35,153 nt of DNA from a virus. A program made the position numbers and the translations under genes. Numbering within the stretch: the first letter of the stretch is position 1; each line of letters opens with the position of its first letter. Where the stretch lies: positions 1 to 35,153 of the IMG/VR virus record IMGVR_UViG_3300022074_000169; one strand, 5' to 3'. This document shows positions 9,214 to 33,446 of this stretch, piece by piece. Under the pieces are notes generated by a model. It ran no database searches and had not been told where the DNA came from. It saw only the letters and a program-made list of their open reading frames with translations.

Positions 9214-9295
9214 CCACAACAATGACCTGTGGAAAACTAGGGGGGTCTATTGATAAGTCACTCTTATTAGACGCCCTCCGTTGACATGGTAGATT

Positions 9296-9341
9296 ACGCT
9301 AAGCGACGCCGAGACAGTGGGTTCGAATCCCACCCTCTCCG
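9296..9341 (+). other. Candidate attP core: tRNA-Ser-like 3' end
   Basis: Bases 9317-9341 form a perfect T-arm (GTGGG, loop TTCGAAT, CCCAC), the 3' acceptor strand CCTCTCC and a discriminator G. A G73 and this acceptor fit a class II tRNA-Ser. No matching 5' half (GGAGAGG) exists upstream, so this is not a functional tRNA. Together with the integrase 74 bases downstream it reads as the phage copy of an integration site that restores a host tRNA 3' end. The left limit of the core is uncertain. Confidence 0.7.
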
Positions 9342-9353
9342 TTTTTCCTACTT

Positions 9354-9377
9354 AACCCCACAAATCGTGGGGTTTTT
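9354..9377 (+). terminator. Intrinsic terminator just after the tRNA-like segment
   Basis: An 8-bp stem (AACCCCAC / GTGGGGTT) with loop AAATC is followed by T bases at 9373-9377. It lies 12 bases after the tRNA-like 3' end, where a host tRNA terminator would lie. It may have been carried in with the att sequence. It would also insulate the integrase from upstream transcription. Confidence 0.7.
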
Positions 9378-9414
9378 CAATAGGTTATCGATAGGCGTTG
9401 CTTATAACCTCACA

Positions 9415-10206
9415 ATGGAACAAATGAACGTTCAGGAAATGACTGACCGACTCAAGGTCAGATACAAACGCATTTCACCTGCAACAAAATTACTATGGGA
9501 CAAGTCAATTAAGTACATCGCAGACATCGACGTGAATGACGTTGATGACGACGTTGCTGCTGACTATCTTGAATATGCAGAAGAAGCGTGGGGTGAAAGC
9601 ACCGTCAAGTGCCGTGTAGGCATCCTTAAAGGGCTCTGGAATAAAGCATCTCGTAAGAAGCTATATAAGGGCGAGAACCCTTGGCTAGAGCTCGATGACG
9701 GCTTGGAAATCGCTAGGCGTGAGCCGACAGTTCATCCTTGGGAGTTCTACGAGTACTACCACAATGATCCTTACTTCGTATGCCTCTGGTATTCAGGAAT
9801 GCGCATCGGAGAATTGGCGGGGATATATCCCGAAAACATCCATGTGGATGCTCCTATCCCCTACTTTGATGTTAAGTATCAAGAGAATCGTGGATTAAAA
9901 AACAAAGCATCTATCAGGCAGGTTCCTATACATAGGAACGCTCTACCATACGTCGAGCAGTTGTATTTCTCAAAGGCAAAGAACCCAGGCACAAGTTGGT
10001 CAGAAAATTTTGGTAGGAATTTAGGGCTCCCTAAGGGCGACGCCGCACATTCCATCAGGCATAGTTTCATCACCAGAATGCGTGCTTTGGATGTGCACGA
10101 GTACTGGATTGACCGTTTGACAGGACACGCACGGAAAGGAGAAACGGCACGTTATGGAAGCTATGACTTGCAATCATTGAATGAGCAATTACAAAAGCTA
10201 CAGTAA
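9415..10206 (+). CDS. int: Tyrosine recombinase / phage integrase
   Basis: 263 residues from ATG 9415. An upstream extension of the frame to 9286 runs through the tRNA-like sequence and terminator and is rejected. Catalytic residues of the lambda-integrase family are visible: R130 (S-G-M-R-I-G-E-L), H212-x-x-R215 (H-S-I-R-H-S-F), H238 (L-T-G-H-A) and nucleophile Y247 (T-A-R-Y-G-S-Y); a Lys in the 160-165 region fits the beta-hairpin lysine. The N-terminal 90 residues resemble a SAM-like core-binding domain. It would catalyse site-specific recombination between the att site upstream and a host tRNA gene. All key residues are present, so the enzyme looks intact. A weak hairpin with a T run follows at 10248. 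Confidence 0.88.
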   Translation: MEQMNVQEMTDRLKVRYKRISPATKLLWDKSIKYIADIDVNDVDDDVAADYLEYAEEAWGESTVKCRVGILKGLWNKASRKKLYKGENPWLELDDGLEIARREPTVHPWEFYEYYHNDPYFVCLWYSGMRIGELAGIYPENIHVDAPIPYFDVKYQENRGLKNKASIRQVPIHRNALPYVEQLYFSKAKNPGTSWSENFGRNLGLPKGDAAHSIRHSFITRMRALDVHEYWIDRLTGHARKGETARYGSYDLQSLNEQLQKLQ

Positions 10207-22540: not shown

Positions 22541-22730
22541 TTTTTAAGTCTTGTTTAAGTTGTTGAAAGCGATCGTCTGAGACGAACTTACAATCGTGGT
22601 TGGGATAGTAACGACCACACCAATTGGATGCGGCCATAGCCCCCGTAAAGTTTTTGACAACTATAAATACAGTGAATGTATAGTCATCAACAACAAATTT
22701 TTCAGGTTCAGAACTCTGCTTCGTCTTCAT
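22533..22730 (-). CDS. Hypothetical small protein
   Basis: 65 residues from ATG 22730, which overlaps the end of the preceding gene by 23 bases; the longer frame to 23018 is a shadow of that gene. One hydrophobic strand (Y-T-F-T-V-F-I-V-V), then W-C-G-R-Y-Y-P-N-H-D-C. Function unknown. Confidence 0.5.
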   Translation of the reverse strand: MKTKQSSEPEKFVVDDYTFTVFIVVKNFTGAMAASNWCGRYYPNHDCKFVSDDRFQQLKQDLKND

Positions 22731-23451
22731 CTTGTTTAGATTTACTCTTAGTTGTACCAACATATGATCCACGTTTGTCGGTGCCGCCAGCAGGTAACCC
22801 TTTCTCTTCAGTCTGACGACCATCAAATGGATCTTTACCTTCAAAGAAATTTGGCAACCAGATAGATTCTTTCTGGGTTTCCCATTCCTTTTTAATTTTC
22901 TCTGGGACTTTGCGGACTTTTGGCAGAATGCTGTATGTAGTCTCAAGTCCAGAACCTTTACGGCTAATCTTAATTGAGAAGTTAGCCAGGCCCTCGTCCG
23001 TCCAGGTATAGTCTTCAATCTCTTGAAGGACTTCAGTCAACTGTTCACGCAGAGACTTCTGCTCAATGAACAGGACTTCCAGTCGACCACGAGAAGCAGA
23101 AGTTGCTACCCAGGCAAGGAAGCGACGAGGCTTTACGTAAGTACCGTCGATCTTGGGTCGGTCGGGCTTTGACCAGTCGGTTTCCCTTGAAATATCAGCA
23201 GGCTGACCAGGATGAGTACGGGTAACGACATAACCATTAAAACGGAGGTCACCCGTCTTAGGGTCTTCAATCTCCGATGCGTATTGCCATCCCACAATCG
23301 CATGTCCTGTCTCATAACAACCGAGTAATCGGAACTCTTCACTTTCTCCATCTTTAAGACTGCTTGGTTTGAAGTATGGTTGTGGTTCTCTGGTTTCAAT
23401 TTTATCTTTAGGAGCCTCAAGTAATTCTGGAGGCAGAACTTGTAGTGTCAT
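22708..23451 (-). CDS. Putative single-stranded DNA-binding protein with acidic tail
   Basis: 247 residues. The core (residues 40-180) is strand-rich with conserved aromatic and basic residues, as in OB-fold proteins. The C-terminus is a flexible, charged tail ending D-E-D-E-A-E-F. A terminal Phe on an acidic tail is the hallmark of T7 gp2.5-like ssDNA-binding proteins, which use it to contact polymerase and helicase. It follows a second SSB-like gene and precedes the nuclease and helicase. The OB-fold call is inferred from pattern only; it could be another replication accessory protein. Confidence 0.5.
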   Translation of the reverse strand: MTLQVLPPELLEAPKDKIETREPQPYFKPSSLKDGESEEFRLLGCYETGHAIVGWQYASEIEDPKTGDLRFNGYVVTRTHPGQPADISRETDWSKPDRPKIDGTYVKPRRFLAWVATSASRGRLEVLFIEQKSLREQLTEVLQEIEDYTWTDEGLANFSIKISRKGSGLETTYSILPKVRKVPEKIKKEWETQKESIWLPNFFEGKDPFDGRQTEEKGLPAGGTDKRGSYVGTTKSKSKQDEDEAEF

Positions 23452-24274: not shown

Positions 24275-24907
24275 CTACTCCCACATTGCGTGGGCAATAG
24301 TAGGAAGTTGTTCTGTAAGAATTTTTTTGACGGAGTCAGCAATTTGCTTGTGCTCTTCTTGTGTACCATTGGCACATCGAAGGTCACAGTAATGCAACCA
24401 ACTTCGAACAGTACCAGTCATATACAGGCGTGTCACTGTGTTCATAGGAAGCACAGATCGAGCACACTCTTTAGCTACATCAGAGTGAAGTAAAGATTCA
24501 TATAGGCTCACAGCTTCACGGAAGTGTTTATCCATCCGATCTTTGTAATACTCTTGTGTTTCCTGAGGAAGGTCGTCAATGGAGTTTTGTCGATTTTTAT
24601 TGTCCTGACGACGTAATTCCGGAACTACAGTAGCAAAAGTATCAGTTGGGATAGCATATCGTTGGCTAAATTCTTGAAATGAAAAGCTACGATGGCGCAA
24701 TATTTGTGGTGATATTGCTCTTGTAGTATGTATCTCAACACACATTGATACCATTTCAAATGGTGACCAATGTTTATGCTTAATCAGATACTTAAGTAGC
24801 TTTTCTACTTTAGGATTGTTTTCATTATCGGGATTAGACACACGAGCAATTTTGCCAACCAGTGCTTCAGCATCCGGTGTAATCCAAATTAATTCTGCGT
24901 TATGCAT
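24275..24907 (-). CDS. thyX: Flavin-dependent thymidylate synthase ThyX
   Basis: 210 residues, usual family length. The ThyX signature R71-H-R-x7-S81 (R-H-R-S-F-S-F-Q-E-F-S-Q-R-Y) is intact. The opening A-x-x-S and H-W-S-P-F-E segments and the R-L-Y-M-T-G-T-V-R-S-W-L-H-Y nucleotide-binding segment also fit. It methylates dUMP to dTMP using methylene-tetrahydrofolate and FAD. Its start overlaps a 34-aa gene by 8 bases, downstream of nrdB, so it belongs to the nucleotide operon. Confidence 0.95.
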   Translation of the reverse strand: MHNAELIWITPDAEALVGKIARVSNPDNENNPKVEKLLKYLIKHKHWSPFEMVSMCVEIHTTRAISPQILRHRSFSFQEFSQRYAIPTDTFATVVPELRRQDNKNRQNSIDDLPQETQEYYKDRMDKHFREAVSLYESLLHSDVAKECARSVLPMNTVTRLYMTGTVRSWLHYCDLRCANGTQEEHKQIADSVKKILTEQLPTIAHAMWE

Positions 24908-25004: not shown

Positions 25005-25260
25005 TACCTTTTATTTTGCCATACAAAATTGGTTTGATACGTCCGTACCCTGATTCAATAGAGTGTATCGGATTAGCTTTGCCTAGTTTATCGTAATACT
25101 CATTAAAAATATCTACTTTCGTATAAGCACGGACAGCATCGAACTGACGCTGACCATCCTTAGTGAACGTGACAATATGAACATCAGTCGGCAGTTCAGA
25201 GTCATCGAAGGTATCAGGACAGATATCTTTTTTAACTACTTGGATTTTGCTACTAGGCAT
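24997..25260 (-). CDS. Hypothetical protein between nrdB and thyX
   Basis: 87 residues, mixed alpha/beta, with no recognised motif. Its start overlaps the nrdB stop by 8 bases. The position inside the nucleotide operon suggests a linked role, but the sequence does not show one. Confidence 0.62.
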   Translation of the reverse strand: MPSSKIQVVKKDICPDTFDDSELPTDVHIVTFTKDGQRQFDAVRAYTKVDIFNEYYDKLGKANPIHSIESGYGRIKPILYGKIKGND

Positions 25261-25984
25261 ACTGGGGTAGGTTTACGTTATTAGTTTCGAAGAAGGCAGG
25301 CATACGGGAAGCACGGGTGCTCAGTAGCCCCTCGGCTTTACCACGGGTGTAGAGCGAATCAGAACTCGCCATCCAGAAGTTCGAGGACAGATGCTTATGA
25401 GTGTCTTCCCCTTTGAGGGATTGAAGCACCCAAGCAACCGTAGCTCTCCTAAGCTTATTGAGCTCTTTGTCAGATTTAAGACCAAGCTCTTCGCAGACGA
25501 GCGTGTTAGCCGCGACATGGGTCTGTTCATCCCGGCTGATATCTGCACTTGTGGTGCGCAGTCCTGTGTCTCCAAGGAAACGGAAGATGGGGAGTAAGAC
25601 AAAGAAGACGGAACGCTCAAGAACCACGGCCTTAAGGACCGGATGGCGGTCCAGTTCAAGCCACGCATTCTTAATGCGTTCAGCTTCTTTCTCAAACCGA
25701 AGGGGGATCTTATGTGCTTCAGCTGCATAATTAAGTGCAATATCATGATTCTCTTCATCAACTACGTTAGACAAGAGAAGCTCCTTGCACCCCTTTACAT
25801 CAGGCAGGTCACCTTTCATAGCCTCGCTAATAAAATCACCAACGGGAATTTCAAGGCAACGCAGGGCAAGCGCACGTTGGATCACTTCTTCACCACCGTC
25901 AAGCAGCATTCCAGCAGATACCTGAACCGGAGTCCAGCTACGCTTGCGTTCGTGGAGATGAATGTAAGGAGTTTCTGCTTTCAT
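25253..25984 (-). CDS. nrdB: Ribonucleotide reductase small subunit (class I, atypical)
   Basis: 243 residues from ATG 25984; the frame to 26023 runs into the nrdA stop. Ferritin-like metal motifs are visible: V-D-E-E-N-H, V-L-E-R-S-V-F-F and S-R-D-E-Q-T-H, matching the E-x-x-H / E / E-x-x-H ligands of R2. In E. coli R2 the radical Tyr122 lies four residues after His118 (E-T-I-H-S-R-S-Y). Here the same spacing (E-E-N-H-D-I-A-L) gives Leu, so a normal tyrosyl radical at that site is not possible. The chain is also shorter than typical R2 (about 340-380). It works with NrdA encoded just upstream. Confidence 0.85.
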   Translation of the reverse strand: MKAETPYIHLHERKRSWTPVQVSAGMLLDGGEEVIQRALALRCLEIPVGDFISEAMKGDLPDVKGCKELLLSNVVDEENHDIALNYAAEAHKIPLRFEKEAERIKNAWLELDRHPVLKAVVLERSVFFVLLPIFRFLGDTGLRTTSADISRDEQTHVAANTLVCEELGLKSDKELNKLRRATVAWVLQSLKGEDTHKHLSSNFWMASSDSLYTRGKAEGLLSTRASRMPAFFETNNVNLPQYA

Positions 25985-26001
25985 TGTTATAAATAAATGG
26001 T

Positions 26002-27420
26002 TTACTCGGCACAACCCACGCAAGCAGCGGGGTCATTAAATATATTCAGAACTTCATCATCATCATCTGAGTCGAAGCCAAACATATTATTGAAGTCAGT
26101 ACCTTCGAGAGCTGCTAGTGCATCATCTTTAGCTTGCGTGCCTTGCATCACCTGAAGTGAGTAATACAGGCTAGTCTGCGGTGAAGCCAACCAGCTAGTA
26201 ACGAACTCAGGGGTGTACTGGACAACGTCAGACCAACTGTTAAAACTGTATCCGTGAAAAAGACCAGTGCGATGAAGCATTTCACAAATGCCATCAACGA
26301 CACGTTTGTATGCTTCCCAGCCAACAGACTCAGCCGTTTCAACCGAACCGTAGTCAAAGGTCTCAACCCCGAAGGTTGAACTGTCCCTGTCTACTGTGCG
26401 CCCGATCGGAGGTGCGATTTCGGGGGCTGTAGTACAGCCAGCTAGGTCTTGATATCGATAGGAACAAGAGGCTGTAGGAGCAATTGCAAACGCACGATCC
26501 ATATTGGCTCTGCGTGCTACAGCTGCTGCTGAATCAACTCCGTCCTGAAGTGCTTTAACTAGTTTACGTGCATCTGGAGTCACGATGGTATCGATATCTT
26601 CGTAAAGATGTTGATTCAAAGCTTCACCAAATTCGCTGTATGAAACTCCCTGCAGCGCAAGGAAGTTGGCAAGGCCCAGCATTCCCAGACCCACTTGACG
26701 ATCTTCCTCTTGAGGTAGATATTCGCCAGTGGACTCAACACCAGTTTTGGGGTGCAAAGAAATAAGCTCTTCCATACCTGCCTTGAATGCATCCGGCAGT
26801 GTTTCTGGAGTGCAAGCACCCAAATTAATGTGCTCTAACAAGCAAGTGCCCCGGCTGCGGAGGAACACTTCCAAGCAAACGTTTGCGTAAATGCGCCTAC
26901 CCCATTGGTCAGAGCGAATCTTTGTCAGCCAGATATCACCACGAGCAATACCTGCAAGGATTGCTTCCTTGACTTTACCGGTTGTGTTCTCCCACATAAG
27001 AGGAGTCAAGTTAACGCAGCGCTTAGCCCAAGGGATCTCGTTGCGTGGTAGGTTCACAAATTCAAGAATATCACCGTGATTAATGTCAAGGTGAAGAACT
27101 ACTGCGCCGTTCTTATAGACGCCTCCTCTGCGAAGCTGCTCGTTAAGGCAGCTATAGATTTTGCCAAATGAACACGGGCCACTCGCAACGAGTCCATTCC
27201 CGTTATCAGTGCCACTTGATCTAATTTTTGAGAGGTGGACAGCAACTCCTGCTCCATAACGCAAAGCGTGAGAAACAAATCGCCAACTTGCTTCGATACC
27301 ATTAGGTCCTTCCATTGAATCTTCTACGACAAAAACCGTACAGCTCACAGGCAAACGGCTGCTCTGGTCATCAATCCAGTTCTGCACACGACCAGTACGT
27401 GCAATCGTATTATTTTCCAT
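26002..27420 (-). CDS. nrdA: Ribonucleotide reductase large subunit (short class I)
   Basis: 472 residues, much shorter than T4 or E. coli NrdA (about 750), with no N-terminal ATP-cone. The catalytic barrel shows S-C-T-V-F, the C-L-L-E segment, the finger-loop A-P-T-A-S-C-S, and the radical-transfer pair Y419-Y420 in S-L-Y-Y-S-L-Q (compare T-L-Y-Y in E. coli). The C-terminal C467-V-G-C470 would relay electrons from thioredoxin. The Tyr pair and the adjacent nrdB support class I, not class II. It reduces ribonucleotides to deoxyribonucleotides. Short forms like this are known in T7-like cyanophages and were once labelled class II. Confidence 0.9.
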   Translation of the reverse strand: MENNTIARTGRVQNWIDDQSSRLPVSCTVFVVEDSMEGPNGIEASWRFVSHALRYGAGVAVHLSKIRSSGTDNGNGLVASGPCSFGKIYSCLNEQLRRGGVYKNGAVVLHLDINHGDILEFVNLPRNEIPWAKRCVNLTPLMWENTTGKVKEAILAGIARGDIWLTKIRSDQWGRRIYANVCLEVFLRSRGTCLLEHINLGACTPETLPDAFKAGMEELISLHPKTGVESTGEYLPQEEDRQVGLGMLGLANFLALQGVSYSEFGEALNQHLYEDIDTIVTPDARKLVKALQDGVDSAAAVARRANMDRAFAIAPTASCSYRYQDLAGCTTAPEIAPPIGRTVDRDSSTFGVETFDYGSVETAESVGWEAYKRVVDGICEMLHRTGLFHGYSFNSWSDVVQYTPEFVTSWLASPQTSLYYSLQVMQGTQAKDDALAALEGTDFNNMFGFDSDDDDEVLNIFNDPAACVGCAE

Positions 27421-27847
27421 ATGTATCGTAGTGAGTGTTCGCTTGAGGAAAAAGCCCAGACAAATCGGGCGGTTGATAGTTAGGTCCTTTCAAAACTTTG
27501 CCATCTCCTCTGTAGATGACATTTCCTTGTTCATCTAGCTTACTCATATTTGACTCAAAGACGCGGCTTAGCGCCTCATCTAAATCAAGTTTGTAAGCAG
27601 CTGCAAACTGATAGCAGACAAAGACTAGATCAGATAATTCTTTGAGCAACTCCTCACGACGCTTATCGTTTTCAGGATCAGCGTAAACTTCGTCAGCTGC
27701 CTCAAAAAATTCTTCAGCCTCTTCACGTATCAATGCACATTGCATTGTCCAGAGTTTCTTTTTTACAAATCCAAAGTTGGAGATGTTGTTACAAATCTCC
27801 TGCCCAAACACTTCTCGGAAGCGTATGGCTTCATCTAATCGGGACAT
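27410..27847 (-). CDS. mazG: MazG-type nucleotide pyrophosphohydrolase
   Basis: 145 residues. The helical metal site E42-E43-A-E45-E46 and the E70-x-x-D73 of the second helix (K-E-L-S-D-L-V-F-V) are intact. The C-terminal segment S-N-M-S-K-L-D, then Y-R-x-D-G-K-V-L-K-G-P-N-Y-x-P-P-D-L is the cyanophage-type MazG ending. MazG enzymes hydrolyse nucleoside triphosphates to monophosphates; phage MazG has been proposed to alter ppGpp or to recycle nucleotides, and which applies cannot be read here. It overlaps nrdA by 11 bases. Confidence 0.9.
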   Translation of the reverse strand: MSRLDEAIRFREVFGQEICNNISNFGFVKKKLWTMQCALIREEAEEFFEAADEVYADPENDKRREELLKELSDLVFVCYQFAAAYKLDLDEALSRVFESNMSKLDEQGNVIYRGDGKVLKGPNYQPPDLSGLFPQANTHYDTYGK

Positions 27848-27889: not shown

Positions 27890-28117
27890 TCACTTTTCTC
27901 GGAGAGTTATACGTCCTCTGTCAAGATCGTATGGAGACAACTCCACAGTGACTCTATCACCAACAAGCAGTTGAATCTTGCGTGTAATAAGTTTTCCTGA
28001 CGCACGACAAAGACATTCATGGTCAGCGGGTTTCTCAAGGCGTACACGGAAATATCCATTGCCATCCTCACGAAGGATTTCACCCTTCGCTTCAATTACA
28101 TTAGCTTTTTTACTCAT
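27890..28117 (-). CDS. infA: Translation initiation factor IF-1
   Basis: 75 residues, the normal IF-1 length. The whole chain fits the S1-type OB fold of IF-1: G-N-G-Y-F-R-V-R-L-E (compare N-x-M-F-R-V-x-L in E. coli), C-R-A-S-G-K-L near the H-I-S-G-K-M position, G-D-R-V-T-V-E-L-S-P-Y-D-L and R-G-R-I-T-L-R. The C-L-C-R-A-x-G-K-L version recalls picocyanobacterial IF-1, so a host origin is likely. IF-1 binds the 30S A site with IF-2 and IF-3. The ATG overlaps the upstream stop by one base (TGATG), so it is translated with the nucleotide operon. A 42-base gap separates it from mazG. Confidence 0.92.
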   Translation of the reverse strand: MSKKANVIEAKGEILREDGNGYFRVRLEKPADHECLCRASGKLITRKIQLLVGDRVTVELSPYDLDRGRITLREK

Positions 28118-28338
28118 CAGAAACCAGTGGGCTTTGCTTTATTTCTTTTTGCTTTTGTTTTGTCAGGAACAATAGTGAGACAGGCAGGTGCCATCTCAAG
28201 TAGTTCGTCGTCTGATTTGGTAAGTAAGAAGTCAGACACACGGTCGATAGCCATAGCCATCAAGCCAGCTTTGGTGATGTTTGATAGAAGATGGCTAGCT
28301 ACGTCATATACAAACTCTTCTCGCTCGTTGTCAGTCAT
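28117..28338 (-). CDS. Hypothetical protein upstream of infA
   Basis: 73 residues, helical, with a basic lysine-rich end (D-K-T-K-A-K-R-N-K-A-K). No recognised motif. Its stop overlaps the infA start and its ATG overlaps the thioredoxin-like stop by 4 bases, so the three genes form one coupled unit. Confidence 0.62.
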   Translation of the reverse strand: MTDNEREEFVYDVASHLLSNITKAGLMAMAIDRVSDFLLTKSDDELLEMAPACLTIVPDKTKAKRNKAKPTGF

Positions 28339-28682
28339 TCAGGATGTGCGTATGTATATGCATCTAGCGTTGCGTCCAGGTGCTCGATGATGTTGTTGGC
28401 TCCGACGAAGCGCTCAACAGTTTCTTCCTCAAGGTCGCAGAACTCGTATCCCATGTCGGGGTCGAAGTCACACTGAACAGCTTGGTGAACGACAACCAAT
28501 GTCGGCGTAAGCTCCACTTGAAGCTCCTCAGCGAGTGCTGTGCGGTTGCCCGTCGCCGTCTTGATCGGTACCAGGTCCAGTTCAGAGTTCTCTTCAGGCG
28601 TAAGACCTTTGAGGTGCTCCTTGAGGCGAGTGCAAGGAGGGCAGTTGTCTTGGGTGAAAACATAAAGGTGATACTGTTTCAT
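28335..28682 (-). CDS. Thioredoxin/glutaredoxin-like protein
   Basis: 115 residues. The redox motif C14-P-P-C17 sits after a V-F-T strand, and the cis-proline T59-P60 comes before a strand, as in the thioredoxin fold. C-P-P-C is unlike the common C-G-P-C or C-P-Y-C. The likely role is to reduce the ribonucleotide reductase, whose C-terminal Cys pair is intact and which lies a few genes downstream. The C-terminus is acidic and longer than in small glutaredoxins. Confidence 0.85.
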   Translation of the reverse strand: MKQYHLYVFTQDNCPPCTRLKEHLKGLTPEENSELDLVPIKTATGNRTALAEELQVELTPTLVVVHQAVQCDFDPDMGYEFCDLEEETVERFVGANNIIEHLDATLDAYTYAHPE

Positions 28683-32357: not shown

Positions 32358-33446
32358 TCAACCAATTGCAGGTGCTTTAAGAGCCACAGGTGTGGTCTCA
32401 GCAGATGCGAGGTCGAGGGGGAAGTTGTGAGCGTTGCGCTCGTGCATTACTTCCATTCCGAGACCAGCACGGTTCAGAATGTCAGCCCACGTATTAATTA
32501 CGTGACCTTCCTTCGAAGTAATCGACTGATTGAAGTTGAAACCATTGAGGTTAAAAGCCATAGTGCTAACACCAAGAGCAGTAAACCAGATTCCAACGAC
32601 AGGCCACGCCGCAAGGAAGAAGTGCAGAGAGCGGGAGTTATTGAAAGAAGCATATTGGAAAATCAAGCGACCGAAGTAACCGTGAGCGGCGACAATGTTA
32701 TAAGTCTCTTCTTCTTGACCAAACTTGTAGCCATAGTTCTGAGAAATGTTTTCTGTCGTCTCACGGATAAGTGAGCTGGTAACCAAACTGCCGTGCATAG
32801 CACTAAACAGAGCGCCACCGAAGACTCCAGCAACACCCAGCATATGGAATGGGTGCATAAGGATATTGTGCTCTGCCTGAAACACCAACATATAGTTGAA
32901 AGTTCCTGAAATACCAAGGGGCATTGCGTCAGAGAAGGATCCTTGACCGAACGGATAGACCAGAAAGACGGCAGAAGCAGCAGCGACAGGTGCGCTATAT
33001 GCAACGAAGATCCAAGGGCGCATACCTAGCCGGTAGCTAAGTTCCCATTCTCGTCCCATGTAAGCGAAGATACCGATGAGAAAGTGGAAGACAACGAGCT
33101 GGAAGGGTCCGCCGTTGTAGAGCCATTCGTCAAGGGTTGCGGCTTCCCAGATGGGATAGAAGTGCAATCCGATTGCGTTTGAAGACGGGACAACTGCTCC
33201 TGAAATGATGTTATTTCCGTAGAGGAGCGATCCTGCAACTGGTTCACGAATGCCATCGATGTCAACGGGGGGTGCGCCAACGAAGGCAATAATAAAACAA
33301 ATAGTTGCTGCAAGCAGCGTGGGGATCATCAAGATGCCAAACCAGCCGACATACAGACGGTTGTTTGTGCTTGTGACCCATTTACAGAATGAATCCCAGT
33401 TGTTTTGGCGAGACTGGGAACCCGCTAGGTTCGAAATTGTAGACAT
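32358..33446 (-). CDS. psbA: Photosystem II reaction-centre protein D1
   Basis: 362 residues, complete. Diagnostic D1 segments are all present: W-G-W-type N-terminal helix region (Y-V-G-W-F-G-I-L-M), [54 protein letters not shown], and the end H-N-F-P-L-D-L-A followed by a cleavable tail. The residue equivalent to D1 position 130 is Glu (G-R-E-W-E), the high-light (D1:2) type, versus Gln in D1:1. D1 turns over rapidly under light; phage copies sustain photosynthesis during infection. A terminator follows and a structured leader precedes. Confidence 0.98.

Follow-up and report, generated by a model that had tools for sequence, protein, structure and literature searches.

Phage-encoded IF1 as such is already published. 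Huge phages carry IF1, which has been proposed to redirect host translation (Al-Shayeb et al. 2020, PMC7162821), and because of these phages a sequence-only reading of the present locus was only partly right in holding that initiation factors are rare in phages. The T7 protein kinase acts on IF1, IF2 and IF3, as cited in a passage of PMC6375957, and T7 therefore likewise touches initiation factors, but it modifies those of the host and encodes none. IF-1 itself binds RNA through an OB fold; seated in the A site of the 30S subunit it turns A1492/A1493 outward, and it shares with IF3 a part in the fidelity of initiation (PMC4611024). The gene described here resembles huge-phage IF1 in being an initiation factor encoded by a phage and differs in that the genome is approximately 82 kb and has hardly any further recognised translation gene, while the IF-1 is of host type and stands elsewhere in the tree than the viral IF-1s otherwise sampled. 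A literature search with most subscription papers outside its range found no report of a cyanophage IF-1, and this IF-1 occurred in no cyanophage of the phage-record collection. As far as the literature searched shows, the new elements are the core status of the gene in an approximately 82 kb cyanophage lineage, its host-type ancestry, and the fixed changes of tip and tail.

The window, which is the whole stretch of DNA analysed (35,153 bases, a virus record in IMG/VR), encodes a family-A DNA polymerase and a primase-helicase in addition to the features collected in Table 1. The presence of psbA indicates a cyanobacterial host, and the ribonucleotide reductase beta subunit had matches almost exclusively in cyanophages. 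The IF-1 ORF starts with ATG and runs from 28117 to 27890 on the minus strand; the plus strand at 27890-28117 has no open frame, and an IF-1 on the plus strand as written was rejected because a stop interrupts that frame. The neighbours are nucleotide-metabolism genes and the ATG shares one base with the upstream stop, in agreement with the nucleotide-operon setting and gene overlap that had been read from the sequence. The overlap is TGATG, in which the last base of the TGA of a 73-aa ORF is the first base of the IF-1 start codon, and that ORF (28117-28338) had no database match.

Table 1. Coordinates of the IF-1 gene, its ribosome-facing segment and other features of the window
Feature	Coordinates	Strand	Remarks
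IF-1 (infA-like) gene, 75 aa	27890..28117	minus	TIGR00008, PF01176, AlphaFold2 model
beta3-beta4 tip segment, residues 43-52 (LITRKIQLLV)	27962..27991	minus	coordinates computed from gene start
73-aa ORF, no known family	28117..28338	minus	variable, poorly conserved in lineage
Thioredoxin/glutaredoxin-like gene	28335..28682	minus	constant upstream neighbour of IF-1 (synteny)
MazG-type nucleotide pyrophosphohydrolase	27410..27847	minus	constant downstream neighbour of IF-1
Ribonucleotide reductase alpha, cyanophage type	26002..27420	minus	
Ribonucleotide reductase beta, cyanophage type	25253..26023	minus	phrog_6799, 1.5e-100
ThyX thymidylate synthase	24275..24907	minus	PF02511
psbA (photosystem II D1)	32358..33446	minus	
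Tyrosine integrase	9286..10206	plus	phrog_1

The IF-1 ORF scored 67.9 bits against the infA equivalog TIGR00008 (cut-off 61.15; model span 1-68 of 69) and matched the Pfam eIF-1a family (PF01176) at 5e-15 and 55.3 bits, while PHROGs placed the protein in phrog_30201, a family without an assigned function. The second-best Pfam match was RsgA_N at 1.8e-6 and 28.1 bits. An RsgA/YjeQ identity was rejected because it needs a circularly permuted GTPase after the OB domain and the protein has just 75 residues, in addition to the lower RsgA_N score. S1 and cold-shock profiles gave zero matches at E 1e-3 in Pfam, NCBIfam and PHROGs, and the fold list alone does not discriminate among these families. 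A profile placement in another S1/OB family had been named as evidence that would speak against IF-1; the infA equivalog cut-off was passed and RsgA_N was far weaker.

An AlphaFold2 model was built from 39 related sequences (pLDDT 81.8) and predicted an OB fold with strands at residues 8-19, 22-27, 33-39, 55-60 and 67-74 and a helix at 41-45. The IF-1 fold was defined as a five-stranded OB of one domain of approximately 72 residues in which a short helix links strand 3 to strand 4, and this is the architecture of the model. Its best matches among solved structures were IF-1 entries, including the 30S-bound factors of E. coli (9fco_I, Z 14.5) and T. thermophilus (1hr0_W, Z 13.3, rmsd 1.1 Å over 71 residues), and the rmsd to 30S-bound IF-1 structures was 1.1 Å across 70-71 residues. 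The phage protein is thus predicted to have the IF-1 fold. The infA score, the predicted fold and the placement in an IF-1 tree described below bear out the call of a full-length IF-1, and we give an even chance to the gene encoding a true but modified IF-1 that acts on the host 30S subunit.

Relatives of the IF-1 were located at 73 loci in IMG/VR. A first set comprised approximately 58 other contigs with 73-96% identity and one gene order, and a second set with 42-49% identity was found in other viruses. The conserved order was psbA, hli, thioredoxin-like, IF-1, mazG, nrdA, nrdB, thyX, exonuclease and primase-helicase with the strand constant too, and in the lineage IF-1 was always situated between the thioredoxin-like gene and mazG-nrdA-nrdB-thyX. 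The dN/dS of IF-1 was approximately 0.08-0.10, with a median of 0.08-0.09 in unsaturated pairs, most pairs being saturated at synonymous sites, and a value near 0.09 implies strong purifying selection. Taken with the homologues at 73-96% identity, this ruled out a chance ORF. Approximately half of the positions were invariant among the 47 distinct phage IF-1 proteins, including C-L-C-R-A-S-G and T-R-K-I. In one contig (L054:2875-3103) a single surplus base behind residue F/Q of GNGYFQ shifts the IF-1 frame; this may be an error of sequencing or assembly, or the copy may be decaying.

A separate search with another lineage gene (22708-23451) recovered 80 loci that served as the denominator. IF-1 was found at 45 of these, where it started 4.5-6.9 kb upstream of that gene. 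Thirty-four of the other 35 loci stopped less than 4.8 kb upstream of the gene and the remaining one (L339) was on a contig severed inside IF-1 (L071), so that none of the 80 had enough flank and lacked IF-1. Since 45 of 45 far-reaching loci carried the gene and the forty-sixth was cut inside it, IF-1 is a core gene of the lineage within the readable stretches. IF-1 was found in none of 67 T7-like nrdB loci, although their flanks were short.

A record of 106,357 bases (L011, G003) repeats itself with a period of 81-82 kb at 87-98% identity. This indicates a genome of approximately 82 kb and a record that exceeds a single genome length, probably by a joining of related strains. Genes for a terminase, a major head protein and a sigma factor are present on the record as well. 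ARAGORN found a single tRNA-Leu (taa) at L049:727-812 in sixteen lineage stretches, and no other translation genes were recognised among the lineage proteins and tRNAs scanned. BAC21E04, an uncultured group, is the probable identity of the lineage. Flores-Uribe and co-workers reportedly described BAC21E04 in 2019 as a lineage of uncultured marine cyanophages with lysogenic potential and a link to Synechococcus. The group is also named in a passage of PMC9983427. The tyrosine integrase of the window provides context for a potential of the lineage for lysogeny, and integrase homologues were present in 12 of the 20 long contigs of the lineage, with in-frame stops in some of the matches. Many other viral contigs (L059-L072 and L162-L235), some longer than 300 kb, carried different IF-1 clades, and a few such as L162 resembled bacterial DNA.

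The best IF-1 match in a comparison with 291 cyanobacterial genomes was bimodal, with 37 small genomes (1.6-3.7 Mb) at 57-61% identity and E about 1e-24 and the remaining genomes at 44-47% identity and E about 1e-11 among the matches listed, or with no match. We take the 37 to be picocyanobacteria from their small size and from an IF-1 that matched a picocyanobacterial reference sequence. As an IMG/VR query that reference retrieved no host contaminant, and the IF-1 sequences of the genomes confirmed it. Exactly one infA over the cut-off, of a divergent type, was present in 37 of 37 picocyanobacterial genomes, the 68-residue core was nearly invariant with six distinct forms, and 35 of the 37 proteins continue into a basic C-terminal tail 18-23 residues long. 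The phage and host proteins have in common the motif H-x-CLCRA-x-G-[KR]-L, a two-residue insertion in the beta2-beta3 loop and the OB fold, whereas the phage form ends at the core without the basic tail and has a short N-terminal MSKKAN extension.

In a tree that included host InfA, the phage clade (100/92) was sister to the picocyanobacterial clade (95/77), the two being joined at 99/96 and placed well apart from the IF-1s of the remaining cyanobacteria. The tree rests on 75 columns and thus cannot date the transfer, and its other deep nodes are weak. Together with the bimodal identities this confirmed the resemblance to picocyanobacterial IF-1 of the CLCRA type, and of the suggestion that the gene was probably taken from a host the origin held while the capture had to be qualified as old, as the phage sequences form a clade beside and not inside the sampled host clade. 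A single, old acquisition, with a picocyanobacterial host or an ancestor of that host as donor, is supported by the sequences compared, although a transfer in the other direction, out of the phage into the host, is formally conceivable. The phage IF-1 was not taken to share its origin with the other viral IF-1s, as those fall elsewhere in the tree; the exception is a neighbouring pair near the phage clade (V_L063 and V_L072), which may reflect long-branch attraction. Because a host homologue exists, an assembly artefact in which host chromosomal DNA had been joined to a viral contig was also considered, and its probability is negligible given that the same neighbours occur in the approximately 58 other contigs, that the phage gene has diverged from the host gene to the identities given above, and that it forms its own clade. 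Two cyanobacterial IF-1s of picocyanobacterial type (L436 and L437; G342 and G323) had no basic tail, had the tip KNKIK and were located at the base of the host clade. The two-residue loop insertion was also seen in Fermentibacterota-type IF-1 (L401-L410, DKPEGH), yet these proteins were placed elsewhere in the tree.

Fixed differences between phage and host cores occurred at 7 of 69 columns, a count that rests on little host diversity (six distinct cores) and may represent divergence on one branch. Five of the seven were in the tip, at phage residues 44, 45, 46, 49 and 52 (E. coli 41, 42, 43, 46 and 49), and this clustering within ten residues had a permutation p of 0.011. The tip reads I-T-R-K-I-Q in the phage versus T-K-F-R-I-K in the host. 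The basic 30S face of C. difficile IF1 consists of K39, R41, R46, R64 and R66, with K39/M42 at the G530 backbone and R41/R46 touching A1492/A1493 (PMC10913371). Contact residues were tabulated in T. thermophilus numbering, which is one higher than that of E. coli. Position 41 was basic in 55 of 55 bacterial and 66 of 70 other viral IF-1s compared and was I or V in 47 of 47 phage proteins, and position 46 was Q with a single H. At position 39 the phage proteins have K or R and at position 64 R or K, and they keep R66 and the C-terminal Arg. Picocyanobacterial IF-1 itself has T41 and K46. Loss of the 30S-contact residues had been put forward as evidence against IF-1, and this was seen in part, with R41 replaced by I or V and R46 by Q while K39, R64 and R66 were kept. 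As the sole IF-1 of the host is also without R41, that residue does not define IF-1 here and its replacement does not take the protein out of IF-1.

The main rival to a modified factor is a plain supplement, in which host-like activity raises the IF-1 supply or sustains it as host transcripts vanish and the tip changes are neutral or compensatory drift. The same predicted fold, the retention of most contact residues and purifying selection are all consistent with this, as is the fact that the phage protein is of the host's own type and the host has one IF-1 gene; the tip, however, does not vary across the phage clade and has residues other than those of the host at contact positions, and under this explanation the host tip and tail would be expected to persist. 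We regard it as a serious possibility but an unlikely one. The loss of two side chains reported at A1492/A1493 with the other contacts and the fold retained would suit a dominant-negative IF-1 that fills the 30S A site of the host without productive host initiation. Such a shut-off factor is improbable, since phage proteins must be initiated on those ribosomes too, the gene is situated among biosynthetic genes, and host IF-1 is itself without R41.

The E. coli IF1 has chaperone and antitermination activity. IF-1 being an OB-fold RNA binder, the phage protein could have left initiation and serve as an RNA chaperone or transcription antiterminator, to which we assign a similarly low probability because the infA equivalog cut-off was passed and the ribosome-facing K39, R64, R66 and C-terminal Arg show little or no variation. 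Two points count against a modified IF-1 that works on the host 30S subunit, which we hold to be an evenly balanced proposition: replacement of R41 and R46 could weaken binding, and the phage protein has a lower positive charge (net charge +1 to +6 versus +5 to +9 in the host).

For such a modified IF-1, the following course is envisaged. The protein would be made together with the phage nucleotide-synthesis proteins and would bind the A site of the host 30S subunit, replacing the host's only IF-1 or acting beside it. With the anchor residues kept and the tip changed, binding would persist while affinity or stringency is altered; in every member tested the tip that faces helix 44 and the 530 loop is changed, and this, together with the loss of the tail, is the ground on which we infer a change in 30S binding or initiation stringency. 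Anti-Shine-Dalgarno pairing upstream of the 23 testable window genes showed no enrichment (-1.35 versus -1.85 kcal/mol at random sites), and these phage genes therefore probably use Shine-Dalgarno-independent initiation. Altered binding or stringency could then allow phage mRNAs without Shine-Dalgarno signals to be initiated well. It is tentatively suggested, as a somewhat doubtful extension, that a captured host IF-1 has been specialised so that its changed decoding-centre tip and lost tail re-set initiation, for example start-site choice on mRNAs lacking Shine-Dalgarno signals, in favour of the phage.

IF-1 is small and belongs to the core of the translation machinery, and a mid-sized phage has kept it in every readable member of its lineage. 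If it acts as inferred, its 75 residues would provide a system in which the host protein serves as natural control for studying the viral takeover of translation initiation. This would be relevant to the ocean's most abundant phototrophs and to the role of the poorly understood IF-1 tip residues, and these phages may in this way tune how an infected cell starts protein synthesis.
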